A DNA stretch of 34,042 nt from a virus: the IMG/VR virus record IMGVR_UViG_3300022188_000032, positions 1 to 34,042 of that record; one strand, written 5' to 3'. Shown here one piece after another: positions 6,785 through 34,042 of the stretch (its first letter is position 1; every line of letters starts with the position of its first letter). Below the pieces are notes generated by a model. That model was not told the origin of the DNA. It did not search any database and was given only the letters and a program-made list of their open reading frames with translations. The position numbers and the translations under genes were made by a program.

Positions 6785-7207
6785 ATGAGTATTTTGATAG
6801 GAAGAAATGCAAAGGTTGTTGTTGGTAGTGCAACCATAGCAGAATTAAGCGAGTGGAGTTTAAATCAAGAAGCACCTTTGTTAACAGCAGAAGTGTTCGG
6901 AACCACACATACGAAGGTTGGTGGGGTTGGTCTCATTTCTGCTGCTGGGTCAGTTTCTGGGTTTCAGGCAAGTGATGACACGACTGGACAAGATATCATT
7001 GAAGCAGCAGTTCAAAATTCAACTTCAAATGCAACATTCAAATTATATGTTGATGCCACTAACTATTACACATCTGATACAACCACTGATTCTGATGCAA
7101 CCTGTTATTTTTCTAATTGGTCTATCACTGTTGTGTCCCAAGAAATCAATAAAATATCATTTGATTATCAATTTTCTGGTCCGATTCATAAAACAGATGG
7201 TTTATAA
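6785..7207 (+). CDS. Major tail tube protein
   Basis: A 140-residue, beta-rich, Thr/Ser-rich protein with few charged residues, as expected for hexameric tube subunits. It starts MSILIGRNAKVVVGSATIAELSEWSL and has alternating strand patterns (GLISAAGSVSGF, CYFSNWSITVV, ISFDYQFSG). It lies just upstream of the frameshifting chaperone pair, as the tube gene does in lambda-like tails. A hairpin follows immediately, like the one after the capsid gene, fitting a need for high expression. Confidence 0.8.
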   Translation: MSILIGRNAKVVVGSATIAELSEWSLNQEAPLLTAEVFGTTHTKVGGVGLISAAGSVSGFQASDDTTGQDIIEAAVQNSTSNATFKLYVDATNYYTSDTTTDSDATCYFSNWSITVVSQEINKISFDYQFSGPIHKTDGL

Positions 7208-25282: not shown

Positions 25283-25311
25283 TTGCATATCAAAATGCCT
25301 TATGTTATAAT
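25283..25311 (+). promoter_or_regulatory. Early promoter copy 1
   Basis: TTGCAT, 17-base spacer, TATAAT with extended -10 (TGT before it), then GCTTTTA. Unlike the other copies it has no start codon within 70 bases; the next gene begins at 25449. It is either a tandem promoter for that gene or the remains of a cassette whose gene was lost. Confidence 0.8.
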
Positions 25312-25383
25312 GCTTTTATTCAATTGAGTTCATATCTATATATCTTTCTTTCTAAAAAAATTAACAAATATATGAAATAAAGC

Positions 25384-25412
25384 TTGCAATCAAAAACACC
25401 ATATGGTATAAT
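25384..25412 (+). promoter_or_regulatory. Early promoter copy 2
   Basis: TTGCAA, 17-base spacer, TATAAT with extended -10 (TGG). The spacer end plus -10 forms the palindrome ACCATATGGT. It is followed by the shared leader GCTTTTAAACAATCAAAC and AACAAAGGGGATAACAAA, then ATG at 25449. Confidence 0.85.
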
Positions 25413-25448
25413 GCTTTTAAACAATCAAACAACAAAGGGGATAACAAA

Positions 25449-26144
25449 ATGCCAAACAAAGAAATAGCTTACTACAACAACATCATGAAAGCAAGATTAG
25501 AAATAAGTGAAGAAGAAGGAGGATATTATTACTGGGATGTAGTTGCTGATTTGATAGGAGATGGCCTGTTGGTTCATTTTGATTCTGATGAAGAACATCC
25601 AGACAAAGTAGAGTATACAGAGGAAGCTGATTGTTTTTCAGTTGAATATACTTGGAAGCCAGGATATTTAAAATGCACAGAATTATTAATGGATGAAATT
25701 GATGAAGAAGAGAAGCAAGAAGAGAAAAAAAGAAAAATACTATTTGACTTCAAAAACACCATATGTTATAATGCTTTTAAATCAAATCAAACACAACCAA
25801 CAACAAAAGGGGATATCAAAATGAAAAATAAAAAACAATTAAAAAAACAAATGAAAAAAGTTGGGGTATTTAATTTTATAGATGTTTTTACCGGAGAAAA
25901 AAGAACAACTACTAAAAAATGCCAGAAAGCAACACAAGGTAAGAAAATCATTGTTAGCAATAAATTGGAAATATATGTTGATAATAAAGGATATAAGGCA
26001 GTGCCCACTGATAAATTTTACTTCTTTGATACAGATACAGAAAGAGACCAAATATTAAAAGGGTTAGCTTTTGTTGTTGAAAATAAATACTTGTTTTGGA
26101 ATGAGAACGATCAAGAATATATTATCCCAGGATTAAGAAAATAG
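25449..26144 (+). CDS. Unknown acidic early protein, read through an internal promoter into a second gene
   Basis: The open frame encodes 231 residues. The first ~99 (MPNKEIAYYNNIMKARLEIS...) are acidic, ending in an EEEKQEEKKRK cluster; no family recognised. The frame then runs without a stop through a full early promoter and leader (25744-25820), whose translation is DFKNTICYNAFKSNQTQ and PTTKGDIK. It continues in frame into a sequence that has its own ATG (25821) and Shine-Dalgarno. Thus the upstream gene seems to have lost its stop and become fused to the next cassette, giving a long 231-residue protein plus a separate 107-residue protein from the internal promoter. A frameshift or sequencing change near 25735 is an alternative. 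Confidence 0.7.
   Translation: MPNKEIAYYNNIMKARLEISEEEGGYYYWDVVADLIGDGLLVHFDSDEEHPDKVEYTEEADCFSVEYTWKPGYLKCTELLMDEIDEEEKQEEKKRKILFDFKNTICYNAFKSNQTQPTTKGDIKMKNKKQLKKQMKKVGVFNFIDVFTGEKRTTTKKCQKATQGKKIIVSNKLEIYVDNKGYKAVPTDKFYFFDTDTERDQILKGLAFVVENKYLFWNENDQEYIIPGLRK
25744..25772 (+). promoter_or_regulatory. Early promoter copy 3 (inside an open frame)
   Basis: TTGACT, 17-base spacer (nearly the same as copy 2), TATAAT with extended -10 (TGT), then GCTTTTAAATC and a leader ending AAAAGGGGATATCAAA before ATG 25821. It is wholly contained in the upstream open reading frame. Confidence 0.85.
25821..26144 (+). CDS. Unknown basic early protein (107 residues), internal start
   Basis: Start at ATG 25821, preceded by an early promoter copy and AAAGGGGAT Shine-Dalgarno; the frame is shared with the upstream gene. 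The N-terminus is Lys-rich (MKNKKQLKKQMKKVGVFNF), followed by a beta-rich part (KIIVSNKLEIYVDNKGYKAV) and a C-terminal ENKYLFWNENDQEYIIPGL. The family is unknown. It is probably expressed at once after infection, as are the other promoter-cassette genes. Its TAG stop lies one base before the -35 region of the next promoter. Confidence 0.7.
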   Translation: MKNKKQLKKQMKKVGVFNFIDVFTGEKRTTTKKCQKATQGKKIIVSNKLEIYVDNKGYKAVPTDKFYFFDTDTERDQILKGLAFVVENKYLFWNENDQEYIIPGLRK

Positions 26145-26145
26145 T

Positions 26146-26174
26146 TTGCAATCAAATCTGCCTTATGGTATAAT
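26146..26174 (+). promoter_or_regulatory. Early promoter copy 4
   Basis: TTGCAA, 17-base spacer, TATAAT with extended -10 (TGG), directly after the stop codon of the previous gene. The leader GCTTTTAAACAATCAAACAA then CAAAGGGGATAACAAC leads to ATG 26211. Confidence 0.85.
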
Positions 26175-26210
26175 GCTTTTAAACAATCAAACAACAAAGG
26201 GGATAACAAC

Positions 26211-26690
26211 ATGGAAGCAGTATCAGTTAACTTATTTTTAGCTCAAGGAAAACATAATGGTTTACGTATAGCCGAGATAACTAACTGGTCTGGTAAGGCC
26301 ATAGCAGCACCAAGGTCAGAAATATCAAAAGATGAATTCAACAAACAAGGAGTGTATATTTTAACAGGTATTGACCCAGAAACAAATAAAAAAACAATTT
26401 ATATAGGGGAATCTGAAAATATATCAAATCATTTAGATAATGTTCTTTTAAATGAGGATTCTTGGAATAATATTACTGCATTTGTTTCAAAATATGAGAA
26501 TTTTACACATTCAGAATTAAAATATCTCAAGGAAAATCTGGTTCAATTAGTTAATAATGACAATTCAACTGTTATGAATGTAGTAAACAATAATGTTGAA
26601 ATATCAGAATCCTCTGCAAGTATAATGGATGGTTATCTTGAAAAATGTTTATTAATATTACCTGTTTTAGGTATTGTAGATTTTATTTAA
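26211..26690 (+). CDS. GIY-YIG domain protein (possibly with a degenerate active site)
   Basis: The 159-residue product begins VNLFLAQGKHNGLRIAEITNWSG, then APRSEI, GVYILTG (about 47-53) and IYIGESENI (63-71), and ends LEKCLLILPVLGI. This order matches the stand-alone GIY-YIG proteins that have a short N-terminal LFL.G...GLR.....NW.G segment. GIY-YIG enzymes cut DNA using the two Tyr, an Arg after YIG and a later Glu. Here the usual Arg after YIGE is not apparent (NISNHLDN) and the YLE.RL helix reads YLKENL, so activity may be lost or altered. It is expressed from its own early promoter; a role in attacking host DNA or blocking a host nuclease is possible but inferred. Confidence 0.75.
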   Translation: MEAVSVNLFLAQGKHNGLRIAEITNWSGKAIAAPRSEISKDEFNKQGVYILTGIDPETNKKTIYIGESENISNHLDNVLLNEDSWNNITAFVSKYENFTHSELKYLKENLVQLVNNDNSTVMNVVNNNVEISESSASIMDGYLEKCLLILPVLGIVDFI

Positions 26691-26698
26691 ATAAATGC

Positions 26699-26727
26699 TT
26701 GACCCTATATGATGAAAATGGTATACT
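26699..26727 (+). promoter_or_regulatory. Early promoter copy 5
   Basis: TTGACC, 17-base spacer ending GAAAATGG, TATACT with extended -10 (TGG), then GCCTTTAAACAATCAAAC and the shared Shine-Dalgarno leader to ATG 26764. This copy and copy 6 form a subtype with the spacer CTATATGATGAAAATGG. Confidence 0.85.
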
Positions 26728-26763
26728 GCCTTTAAACAATCAAACAACAAAGGGGATAACAAC

Positions 26764-27147
26764 ATGGTCAGACATTATAAAACAGATGACAAAATACTTT
26801 GTAATACAAAAGCAAAAAAGATTGTATTTACAGAAATAAAAGTAGACGTAACTTGTAAGAAATGTTTGAAGAAACTTTCACCAACTCCAAAGAAAGTTAA
26901 AGAGAAAAAACCATTTCAAGATATATTTACACCAGATTGTATTACAGAAGAACTATTGAAATTTATACCAATCAAACAAGGGGATAAAATACTTGAGCCC
27001 ACAGCAGGCACAGGAAACATGGCAGAAGTATTGTTAAAACAAGTAAGTGCCCAGGGCATCAGTATAAACTTGACATGTAATGAAATTCAAAAGAAACATT
27101 CAGATGTATTAAAAAAAAGATTATCAAAATATGGTAAAATAGTTTGA
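26764..27147 (+). CDS. Cys-motif N-terminal module fused to a truncated adenine-methyltransferase domain
   Basis: Residues 1-38 (MVRHYKTDDKILCNTKAKK..., VTCKKCLKKL) carry three Cys that may form a small zinc-binding module, and are nearly identical to the start of the next gene. Residues about 55-127 match the beginning of an N6-adenine methyltransferase: FTPDCITEELLKFIP, then SAM motif I LEPTAGTGN (about 77-85) and NLTCNEIQKK. The catalytic NPPY/NPPF motif is absent because the gene ends at residue 127; the TGA stop lies inside the -35 hexamer of the next promoter. It is therefore a methyltransferase fragment, perhaps a SAM-binding decoy or simply decaying. Confidence 0.75.
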   Translation: MVRHYKTDDKILCNTKAKKIVFTEIKVDVTCKKCLKKLSPTPKKVKEKKPFQDIFTPDCITEELLKFIPIKQGDKILEPTAGTGNMAEVLLKQVSAQGISINLTCNEIQKKHSDVLKKRLSKYGKIV

Positions 27148-27172
27148 CTCTATATGATGAAAATGGTATACT
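27144..27172 (+). promoter_or_regulatory. Early promoter copy 6
   Basis: TTGACT, 17-base spacer CTATATGATGAAAATGG (identical to copy 5), TATACT. Its -35 hexamer supplies the TGA stop of the preceding gene. The leader with AAAGGGGATAATAAC leads to ATG 27210. Confidence 0.85.
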
Positions 27173-27209
27173 GCTTTTAAATCAATCAAACAACAAAGGG
27201 GATAATAAC

Positions 27210-27638
27210 ATGGTTAGACACTTTAAAGAAAATGATAAAATACTTTGTAATACCAAAGGAAAAAAGATTGTCTTTACAGAAATAAAAGCAGACGTAACTT
27301 GTAAGAAATGTTTTAAGAAATTAAATGAGTCAAAGCATTTCAGATATTTCAAAGAGTTCTTAAAAGGAGATTTGATGGGTCAAACAAAGGGATTTTGGGC
27401 AATGAAGCAATGCAAATCCCATGATGAAGCACCAGTTAGAGCATATATTACAGGTTCAAAGGATGCTTACTACTACTGCTGGTATATCAAAAACAGGCCA
27501 GAAATGAGAAAAAAGATAAAAGTATCAAAATTTGCATTAGAATTTTGCCAGAATGTAGATGATGACCCAGAAGTAGCCAAGAATATTACAGACTCAAAGG
27601 ATAGGATGATATATGAAGCTACTAAAAAAAGATGTTAG
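27210..27638 (+). CDS. Unknown early protein sharing the Cys-motif N-terminal module
   Basis: Start at ATG 27210, after the shared leader; an upstream in-frame ATG (27144 frame) lies inside the promoter and is rejected. Residues 1-38 (MVRHFKENDKILCNTKGKK..., VTCKKCFKKL) duplicate the previous gene's N-terminus. The rest (SKHFRYFKEFLKG, FWAMKQCKSHDEAPVRAYIT, DAYYYCWYIKNRPEMRKKI, LEFCQNVDDDPEV) is unique and I cannot place it. A strong terminator follows. It may be a host-takeover protein, by analogy with other early phage genes; that is inference. Confidence 0.75.
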   Translation: MVRHFKENDKILCNTKGKKIVFTEIKADVTCKKCFKKLNESKHFRYFKEFLKGDLMGQTKGFWAMKQCKSHDEAPVRAYITGSKDAYYYCWYIKNRPEMRKKIKVSKFALEFCQNVDDDPEVAKNITDSKDRMIYEATKKRC

Positions 27639-27652
27639 ATAAACACTATATT

Positions 27653-27692
27653 AAAAAAAAAGGGGGTATCAGAAATGGTATCCCTTTTTTTT
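27653..27692. terminator. Strong bidirectional intrinsic terminator after the early cassette genes
   Basis: A run of nine A, then GGGGTATCA, a GAAA loop, TGGTATCCC and eight T. The stem is nine pairs (two G-U) flanked by A/T that extend it. It separates the cassette block from promoter copy 7. Confidence 0.9.
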
Positions 27693-27748
27693 GTTTAAAA
27701 AAAGAATTCAATCTATATCATAAACACCTTAAAAAGATTGAATATTAC

Positions 27749-27777
27749 TTGATTTTCAAAATGCTATATGTTATAAT
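27749..27777 (+). promoter_or_regulatory. Early promoter copy 7
   Basis: TTGATT, 17-base spacer, TATAAT with extended -10 (TGT), then GCTTTTTATGG. Its leader differs from the others in the middle but ends with the shared ACAAAGGGGATATCAG before ATG 27830. Confidence 0.85.
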
Positions 27778-27829
27778 GCTTTTTATGGTTGTCAATTAAG
27801 ATATACCATATAAACAAAGGGGATATCAG

Positions 27830-28222
27830 ATGAATGAAACAATATCAGAACTGTATATAAAATATGATATAGACAATATTTTATTAGAAACAGAGTTAAA
27901 AAAAATTATTAAACACACACTGGATTTTAATATGCTAAGAGCAAATAATAACTATGAACTTTCACAAATAAACATCATCCATGATAAAAAAAGTGGGGAG
28001 AAGCTTATATTTTATCAAAGCAAAGGAATAAAGACAATAACTGCTATCAAAGAAGGATACTTGGCACAAGATGGGGAATTAATTTCAATTAAGAAATTGA
28101 TGAATATACATCAATTAAGATTAGAATTCTTTACAAATATATGTGAAATGTTAAATCAGTTATATCAAATGAGAATTGATGGATATAACAATAACAATAT
28201 AAATAATAATAAGAGACTATAA
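27830..28222 (+). CDS. Unknown early protein before the putative origin
   Basis: A 130-residue protein with its own early-type promoter and AAAGGGGAT Shine-Dalgarno. The N-terminal half is helical (ISELYIKYDIDNILLETELKKIIKHTLDF), the centre is a beta segment (LSQINIIHDKKSGEKLIFYQ), the C-terminal helix LRLEFFTNICEMLNQLYQM follows, and it ends in an Asn-rich tail (NNNNINNN). No family recognised. The place next to the candidate origin might suggest a replication or control role, but nothing in the sequence shows it. Confidence 0.7.
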   Translation: MNETISELYIKYDIDNILLETELKKIIKHTLDFNMLRANNNYELSQINIIHDKKSGEKLIFYQSKGIKTITAIKEGYLAQDGELISIKKLMNIHQLRLEFFTNICEMLNQLYQMRIDGYNNNNINNNKRL

Positions 28223-28241
28223 GTCCTTTATTACTTTATTA

Positions 28242-28277
28242 ACACACATGGAGACCCCCTTTATCCCCCATGTGTGT
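28242..28277. repeat. Hairpin 1 of the non-coding region
   Basis: Perfect 10-bp inverted repeat ACACACATGG/CCATGTGTGT. The loop is C-rich (two runs of five C around TTTAT) and complementary, with one mismatch over 15 bases, to the G-rich loop of hairpin 2. Confidence 0.9.
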
Positions 28278-28345
28278 ATTATAACTATTATAACTATCCT
28301 TATATTATTAAAGGACTAACCACTAAAGTAATTAAAAGTAATAAG

Positions 28346-28385
28346 GCAGTGTGTGGGGGATTAAGGGGGCACCTCCACACACTGC
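28346..28385. repeat. Hairpin 2 of the non-coding region
   Basis: Perfect 11-bp inverted repeat GCAGTGTGTGG/CCACACACTGC. The loop contains GGGGGATTAAGGGGG, the near-complement of the loop of hairpin 1; the two hairpins look like an inverted duplication. Confidence 0.9.
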
Positions 28386-28452
28386 ACTATAATGTATTAA
28401 GGGATTAAGGGTATAATACCATAATAACTATTATATCTTATAACTATCATTA

Positions 28453-28477
28453 ACACACCCTCCTTGGGGGAGTGTGT
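28453..28477. repeat. Hairpin 3 of the non-coding region
   Basis: ACACAC pairs with GTGTGT, extended after a C-A mismatch by CTCC with GGGG-type pairs, around a short TTG loop. It shares the ATTAACACACC entry with hairpin 1. Confidence 0.75.
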
Positions 28478-28567
28478 ATGACAATAAGTCTATAATACTA
28501 TAATACCATAATAACTATAAGAGTATTCTTATTAATAATAGAAAGAGCTACATAGAATTTCAATGTT

Positions 28568-28713
28568 TTGTTATTATCACCATATCTGATATAGTAAATT
28601 AATCAAATGTATCTACTTTTTGATAGAAATCAACAAGGCATACTCCACCAGAAAAGTAATGATTTATTTTATTTTTATTTAAAATATATTTTATTGTTTC
28701 TATCTGCTATAAT
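28568..28713 (+). promoter_or_regulatory. Promoter candidates for the replication genes
   Basis: Two sigma70-like elements lie in the right half of the non-coding region. The first is TTGTTA (28568-28573), 16 bases, TATAGT (28590-28595) with extended -10 TG. The second is TATAAT (28708-28713) with extended -10 (TGC) and only a weak -35. Neither carries the repeated early leader, so replication genes appear to be controlled separately. Confidence 0.5.
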
Positions 28714-28841
28714 AGTTAAATAGAGATTAAGAGTATATACTTATAAGTATTCTTAATGATATCAATGACTTATGACTTATATTGATTTAAATAATTATTA
28801 TACTATATAATATTAAGAAAACAAAAAGGAGATATATTAAC

Positions 28842-30278
28842 ATGATAACTTATTTACAATATTTTGATATCAATGGTGATAAGCAATACTTTGATAAGGA
28901 TGATTGTTCTCGGGTAATTGATAAAAATACAATAACAAATTATGTTATCAATACCTCAACACCAGAATTTGATAATTTGCTTGAAACTATTTTTAATAAT
29001 TTTTTTGTTGAATTTGAAAATTATAAGAAGACACAGAAAATTTATCTTAACTCAAGTAATGCTGTGAATGCAAAAAATAAATTGATTTATATTTCAGGTA
29101 TCACTGCGGTTATTCTATCAGCCTTAAAAACACATGTATTTAAAACAGAATTTGGTGTTTTTATAAAAAGGTCAACTCAAGCTTATAACAAAGAAATATT
29201 GGCATCAAAAACAAAGAAAAAGACAAAACCAACACCACTTTATGAAAAGGGTTTTAAATTCAATCAAATGATACCAGTATTTGATATTTTAAATGATTTA
29301 AAATACATCAAAATGTATGTTGGATATAACAATAAAATAACTGCAAATAAAAAGTTCACCTGTTTTTCAAATTATTACCCTACAGACAAATTAATTAAAC
29401 TATTTGAAAAAACACCTTTACCCAAGCTTATTACCCCAGTGGAATATACTAAACCATTGAAATCATTGATAAAAGAACCTGTAATTTTGAGAGATAATGA
29501 CAAAAATGATATGAAAATATTAAAATCATCTGAAATTGTTAAACCAATGATAAGGTTTTTAGATAAGTTCAACAAATTTATGAAAAAAGCAAAAATATCA
29601 CATGTTCAAAACATGTTTCAATGGAGACATAAAACAATAAGACTACATAGAGTGTTTAACAATTCAAGCTGGTCTAAAGGTGGTAGATTCTATGGTGCTT
29701 ATCAATCTGAAAATAACCAAAACAACCAACGGCAAAACATTCTTATCAATGGTGAAAAAACAATTGAAATAGATTATCAAAACATGCATCCCAGAATGTT
29801 ATATCATTTGAACGGTATCAATCCATTGGGTGATTTGTATTTGATTGACAGACCAGAAGACAGAAATCACTGGAAAATGTTTTTTCAATTTGCTTTGAAT
29901 TGCAAAAGTGAATTATTAACAGAAAATGCACTACATCAATATTTTTATAAGAAAAACAAACATAAAAAAGAAACTGATAAAATAGTAAATCCTTTTGAAA
30001 AGAGATTCGGTGATGACTGGAAAAAGGTTATTATATCACAGATGAAAACAAAATACAATGATATCAAACATGAGTTGTTTTGTAATGGGGGAAGTAAACT
30101 ACAGAATTTAGATAGTAAAATCATGAAAAACGCACTTGAACTACTCATGAAAGAGGGGATTTTTGCCATACCTTTTCATGATTCTATAGTGGTTCAAAAA
30201 AAACATGAAGTCAAGTTAAGGTCTATTATGATGGGTTGTTATTACGATACAATGAAATATTTTCCAGTTTTAAAGTAA
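28842..30278 (+). CDS. Replication protein with family-A DNA polymerase-like palm motifs
   Basis: The 478-residue product has a strong AAGGAGAT Shine-Dalgarno. The C-terminal half matches a phage/plasmid family with WSKGGRFYGAYQ (about 280-290), then INGEKTIEIDYQNMHPRML (motif A-like, Asp at about 311) and near the end GIFAIPFHDSIVV (motif C-like, His-Asp at about 446-447). The spacing of an acidic beta strand DYxxxHPR and a HDS strand recalls motifs A and C of family A polymerases, but a standard fingers O-helix (KxxxxxxxYG) and a 3'-5' exonuclease domain are not seen. The N-terminal 250 residues are unassigned and Lys-rich. Together with the following primase and helicase it probably copies or primes phage DNA; this is inferred. 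Confidence 0.65.
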   Translation: MITYLQYFDINGDKQYFDKDDCSRVIDKNTITNYVINTSTPEFDNLLETIFNNFFVEFENYKKTQKIYLNSSNAVNAKNKLIYISGITAVILSALKTHVFKTEFGVFIKRSTQAYNKEILASKTKKKTKPTPLYEKGFKFNQMIPVFDILNDLKYIKMYVGYNNKITANKKFTCFSNYYPTDKLIKLFEKTPLPKLITPVEYTKPLKSLIKEPVILRDNDKNDMKILKSSEIVKPMIRFLDKFNKFMKKAKISHVQNMFQWRHKTIRLHRVFNNSSWSKGGRFYGAYQSENNQNNQRQNILINGEKTIEIDYQNMHPRMLYHLNGINPLGDLYLIDRPEDRNHWKMFFQFALNCKSELLTENALHQYFYKKNKHKKETDKIVNPFEKRFGDDWKKVIISQMKTKYNDIKHELFCNGGSKLQNLDSKIMKNALELLMKEGIFAIPFHDSIVVQKKHEVKLRSIMMGCYYDTMKYFPVLK

Positions 30279-33719: not shown

Positions 33720-34042
33720 TGCCATTTCTCAAAAAACCACATTTAAATGATTCAGAAGAGACCAGAAGAGAATACCTTTATTCTTTACGTATTGCTGGTC
33801 TTAGTTATAGTGATATCAGAAATAGGCTTTTTGAAGAGAAAAACACCAGATATAGTTTTGAAAGAATCAAACGATTGATTGCCGAACACATCGAAATTCA
33901 TAATATTGTAGAACCATTTGAAAATATTATATATTTAGAGTTATCAAGAATTGATGAAGCAATAAAGGCCATCAATTCCGAAGTAAAACAGGGTAATGTA
34001 TATGCCATTGATAGGCTATTGAAACTGCTTGACAGAAGAGCC
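33719..34042 (+). CDS. terS: Terminase small subunit, 5' part (continues at window position 286)
   Basis: Start at ATG 33719, coupled to the previous stop through TAATG. It reads MPFLKKPHLNDSEETRREYL and runs off the window end. Bases 33758-34042 repeat 1-285. With the window-start copy it makes a 142-residue protein. The start and upstream context are visible only here. Confidence 0.8.
   Translation, partial: MPFLKKPHLNDSEETRREYLYSLRIAGLSYSDIRNRLFEEKNTRYSFERIKRLIAEHIEIHNIVEPFENIIYLELSRIDEAIKAINSEVKQGNVYAIDRLLKLLDRRA
33758..34042 (+). repeat. Terminal overlap with positions 1-285
   Basis: The two ends align over 285 bases with two substitutions (6 T versus 33763 C; 159 T versus 33916 A), both silent in the small terminase gene. 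This is the signature of a circular or circularly permuted genome written with an overlap. Confidence 0.92.

Follow-up and report, generated by a model that had tools for sequence, protein, structure and literature searches.

Near-identical putative promoter-leader cassettes precede a run of small genes in a 34-kb tailed phage genome

Seven near-identical sigma70-type promoters lie on one strand inside 2.5 kb of a viral genome. Six of them are followed by a leader, rich in A and C and for the most part unstructured, that carries AAAGGGGAT and leads to an ATG. The analysis confirmed the array; judged from its sequence, the best reading is that of functional promoter cassettes. We consider it highly probable that these are promoter-leader cassettes for the host RNA polymerase, driving small accessory genes of a tailed phage. 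The window, i.e. the whole stretch of DNA analysed, is the entire virus record of 34,042 bases, with a G+C content of 31%.

The two ends of the record (1-285 and 33758-34042) repeat each other, with 283 of 285 positions identical. Since the ends overlap by 285 bases, the genome is very likely complete at about 33.76 kb, and it is probably circularly permuted or terminally redundant. The encoded proteins include terminase, portal, capsid, tape measure, and, for the tail, lambda-like proteins with a J-like central fibre among them, which points to a Gram-negative host. Replication genes occupy 28.8-32.8 kb. Ahead of them is a 620-bp AT-rich non-coding stretch with several inverted repeats (28222-28842), which is a candidate replication origin or terminator region. 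In Pfam scans none of the proteins searched was recognised as an integrase, a repressor, or a phage RNA polymerase, and both an Rfam scan and a tRNA scan were empty. The predicted features of the array region are as follows.

25283-25311, + strand: promoter P1, TTGCAT-N17-TATAAT with extended -10, then GCTTTT
25384-25412, + strand: promoter P2, TTGCAA-N17-TATAAT
25419-25448, + strand: P2 leader, predicted 30-nt A/C-rich 5' UTR with AAAGGGG Shine-Dalgarno
25449-26144, + strand: gene 1 frame, a 97-aa head, 27 residues of unit P3, and the 107-aa gene 2, with no internal stop
25744-25772, + strand: promoter P3, TTGACT-N17-TATAAT, within the gene 1 open frame
25779-25820, + strand: P3 leader, 42 nt, a longer variant
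25821-26144, + strand: gene 2, 107 aa and pI 9.7 if begun at its own ATG
26146-26174, + strand: promoter P4, TTGCAA-N17-TATAAT, beginning 1 nt past the gene 2 stop
26181-26210, + strand: P4 leader
26211-26690, + strand: gene 3, 159 aa, phrog_12629 (E 4e-30)
26699-26727, + strand: promoter P5, TTGACC-N17-TATACT, second spacer type
26734-26763, + strand: P5 leader, 28 nt the same as P2 and P4
26764-27147, + strand: gene 4, Cys-containing head and DNA-methyltransferase fragment
27144-27172, + strand: promoter P6, TTGACT-N17-TATACT
27179-27209, + strand: P6 leader
27210-27638, + strand: gene 5, 142 aa
27655-27692, + strand: intrinsic terminator, stem of -18.4 kcal/mol, then a T run
27749-27777, + strand: promoter P7, TTGATT-N17-TATAAT, downstream of the terminator
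27784-27829, + strand: P7 leader, diverged, with a 5' hairpin before AAAGGGGAT
27830-28222, + strand: gene 6, 130 aa, no family

All seven promoters named in the preliminary description (25283, 25384, 25744, 26146, 26699, 27144, and 27749) were found. On the + strand of the window the pattern TTGN17TGNTATAMT has seven matches, all of them within the array, and on the - strand it has one; a first-order Markov model gave a chance expectation of about 0.2 per window, and no more than 2 came up in any of 200 simulations. When each unit was scored with a profile made from the other six, scores were 26-41 bits per unit, compared with at most 15.5 bits for the best other site in the genome. Furthermore, every one of the six occurrences of AAAGGGGAT in the window belongs to an array leader. 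Two scripts, one comparing the upstream regions of genes and the other comparing promoter candidates, gave for this window a group of 5 (at most 2 in shuffles) and a group of 6 (at most 3 in shuffles), respectively. The region holds several near-copies of one promoter, each ahead of a small gene, that are more alike than chance would give. A loose sigma70 scan returned 117 matches where 97 were expected, as might be anticipated if the units were chance promoter look-alikes in an AT-rich genome; this explanation is refuted by the strict pattern and the profile scores, which lie far beyond chance, and by the leaders, which repeat too, and its probability is negligible. The six promoters listed by the sigma70 scan match the consensus at 10-11 of 12 positions.

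The promoter anatomy given in the preliminary description (TTG-type -35, 17 bases, extended -10 TG) was borne out in all seven copies, in which TATAAT or TATACT is followed by GCYTTT. Hexamer spacing is 17 bp throughout, inside the 16-18 bp range. Positions unchanged across the seven aligned units are TTG, one spacer A, ATG before the -10, TATA-T, and GC-TTT; P5 has GCCTTT instead of GCTTTT. The leader, described as shared, is present in six units, while P1 (25283) has neither a leader nor an ATG of its own and is a tandem promoter 101 bp upstream of P2. The ATG had been placed about 37 bases on, a distance that proved not to be constant: counted from where the -10 ends, it is 36, 48, 36, 36, 37, and 52 bases in P2 to P7. 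From -35 to ATG, four of the six units measure 65-66 nt. A cassette of about 65-80 bp nearly fills the gap between two genes, with unit starts at 1, 8, and -4 nt relative to the upstream stop codon.

Assuming a transcription start 7 nt past the -10, predicted 5' UTRs are 30-46 nt long. The A/C-rich leaders of P2 to P6 fold at 0 to -2.3 kcal/mol, and that of P7 carries its 5' hairpin (-8.7 kcal/mol) ahead of the shared motif; the P3 and P7 leaders are diverged. At all six start sites the pairing between Shine-Dalgarno and 16S tail lies in the range of -7.8 to -8.9 kcal/mol, a strength that is ordinary for this genome.

Past the -10, P2 and P4 are identical over 33 nt and P5 differs at one position, while the spacers of these three promoters differ at 5-10 of 14 positions. 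Such leader identity despite spacer divergence suggests that the leader either is under strong selection or was evened out by gene conversion, and part of the likeness may stem from recent copying instead of selection. One spacer type is found in five of the seven promoters; P5 and P6, which share 95% identity over 38 nt, have a second, wholly different type. The repeats might alternatively be operators, with a phage regulator binding the conserved spacer and GC-TTT and controlling all genes together. The invariance of GC-TTT past the -10, outside the sigma70 consensus, would fit this, as would the predominance of one spacer type, but in P5 and P6 the spacer is wholly different with all else kept, and neither a repressor nor an integrase was recognised in the scanned proteins. 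We regard an operator array as distinctly unlikely.

Genes 1 and 2 form a single open frame across P3, as unit P3 has no stop in that frame, so that an acidic 97-aa head (pI 4.3) is joined through 27 residues from the promoter and leader to a basic 107-aa tail. The two genes may truly be fused, a stop codon may have been lost, or the assembly may be in error; structure prediction for the 231-aa frame was uninformative, with a mean pLDDT of 31. Gene 3 has weak GIY-YIG similarity, below cut-off. In gene 4 the Cys-containing head of about 38 aa is joined to a methyltransferase part with the motif I region only, and the gene's TGA stop sits inside the -35 of P6. The first 38 codons of gene 5 are paralogous to gene 4, after which the two are unrelated. 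Since similarity between P5 and P6 continues 38 codons into the genes and then stops, we read the two units as a duplication that took in 38 codons of a gene. Several of the small genes have no family, and a takeover or accessory role for them is suggested by analogy.

These features also fit a reading in which the units act chiefly as modules for recombination, in the manner of the promoter early stem-loop elements (PeSLs) of T4-type phages, providing short stretches of homology between genes by which small genes are exchanged, and carrying promoter function along. The units mark exact gene borders, the P5/P6 duplication took in a piece of a gene, the methyltransferase of gene 4 is truncated and ends in the next unit, and spacers and leaders form mosaics. 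However, conservation peaks exactly at the promoter and ribosome-binding positions, no stem-loop is common to the units, and no second genome with the same units but different genes was found. Recombination as the main function is a possibility to be taken seriously, although we think it somewhat improbable.

Under the preferred reading, that of promoter-leader cassettes, the phage would rely on the host RNA polymerase. Each cassette would begin with a strong sigma70 promoter of the extended -10 type, followed by a short leader rich in A and C and by a Shine-Dalgarno that ends at the start codon. Because the cassette fills almost the whole intergenic gap, any small gene placed after it would gain its own strong start of transcription and translation. 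It had been proposed that every small gene forms a transcription unit of its own, which the sequence does not support: genes 1 and 2 share an open frame across P3, and the only strong intrinsic terminator on the + strand in 25.0-28.9 kb is the one at 27655-27692, past the sixth promoter. P1 to P6 should consequently read through one another, giving nested, co-terminal transcripts that end at 27692, with P7 as a separate unit, and downstream genes would be read from several promoters. Early expression is plausible. Cassette copies would be kept alike by recombination or duplication within the genome, and the same events would yield mosaics in which two spacer types are found with one leader. 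We infer recombination as the homogenising process.

Mycobacteriophages, SPO1, and halovirus HF2 already show this arrangement; the novelty here lies in the sequence, in the tight promoter-plus-leader unit in a small phage, and in the hints that such cassettes remodel neighbouring genes. The preliminary description had set the array apart from mycobacteriophage repeats on the grounds that here the repeat includes a complete promoter. This distinction does not hold, as in cluster K phages SigA-like -35 and -10 boxes are part of the extended repeats (ESAS) (PMC11373665). In agreement with this, Adephagia units read directly comprise -35, -10, leader, SAS, and ATG over about 67 nt, close to the -35 to ATG distance of most units here. 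As in the present array, cluster K ESAS/SAS repeats stand directly before the start codons of small genes, and within the ESAS the -35 and -10 boxes of a promoter lie 17-18 bp apart, with a conserved stretch for ribosome binding after it. In contrast, the ESAS includes a 17-bp imperfect inverted repeat around its promoter, none being seen on reading the aligned units here, the SAS also occurs alone, and sites in Adephagia are scattered over the right part of the genome. The sequences are unrelated; the leaders of this array carry AAAGGGGATAACA and not the cluster K start-associated 13-mer GGGATAGGAGCCC. Comparison of upstream regions found groups in Adephagia, SPO1, and this window, and comparison of promoters found groups in SPO1 and this window, Adephagia giving no promoter candidates because its -10 boxes depart from consensus.

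Similar to the array described here, SPO1 has ten near-identical sigma70-type promoters with a 17-bp spacer and TG before the -10, ahead of small genes, but in our comparison its common stretch consists of the promoter and immediate surroundings, the longest ending short of the start codon. Genes of the SPO1 takeover module are mostly small and early, and their promoters and ribosome-binding sites are those of genes with high expression (PMC6873191). In halovirus HF2, 58-bp repeats between genes carry promoters, as proven by reporters (PMC8707807), and resemble the present units as intergenic repeats with promoters; unlike these, they are archaeal promoters upstream of early-middle gene modules. 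PeSLs, as cited in PMC4503421, are likewise early promoter cassettes that recur where genes meet in shuffled regions, but in them the promoter is paired with a stem-loop. The present array has one terminator and no common stem-loop, and with the leaders of P2 to P6 essentially unstructured it lacks the PeSL combination of early promoter and conserved stem-loop.

A search of 2.9 million viral contigs brought up no close relative that carries this array. Exact unit patterns occurred there in 48 and 8 stretches, and none of the 48 records with the promoter pattern has more than two copies; the combined -10 and leader pattern gave one chance match in viral contigs and two in bacterial genomes. Queries with the primase, terminase, tail protein J, and the 28842-30278 protein retrieved only distant terminase relatives at up to about 45% identity, and a terminase-alignment scan of genome contigs yielded no relative. 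Among 18 terminase-related viral contigs (whole or partial), two, G058 and G061, have arrays of their own with different, private sequences.

In G058 (L173, minus strand), near-identical promoters TTGACAAACTAAAATAAATATGTTATAAT lie ahead of small genes at 7195, 7931, 9584, and 14478. G061 has five near-identical promoters TTGACATATTGCAATCTTTATATTATGAT (L176 741; L177 11961, 13257, 13942, and 18171). Other kinds of repeat were also seen. In G050 (L194), three genes at 2423, 4473, and 5784 stand behind a long common repeat with a palindrome (ACAATTATATAGC...ATATAATTG) that has no sigma70 promoter match. In G060 (L175, minus strand), a common leader of the AAAAAAGAAAGAGAGTAAATAAA-ATG type precedes five start codons (1902, 2355, 3747, 6494, and 18776); having no promoter, it is by its sequence a start-associated repeat of the translation-only sort. 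A further candidate, L053, was dropped since it has two convincing promoter-like sites only and no clear array.

The duplication, the truncated gene, and the translated unit are hints that cassettes reshape the genes between them. More speculatively, and in our estimation rather improbably, a genome-private, homogenised cassette may capture and swap genes and also be translated, as at P3, where a long fused protein and, by way of the internal promoter, a short one would result, with distant relatives having cassettes of their own. If true, this would imply rapid concerted evolution of early promoters. The array adds a compact and clear case from a 34-kb phage to a known arrangement, and the private arrays in two of the terminase-related contigs suggest that phages repeatedly homogenise their own promoters. 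Promoter repeats alone could then serve to find the takeover and counter-defence genes of unknown phages.
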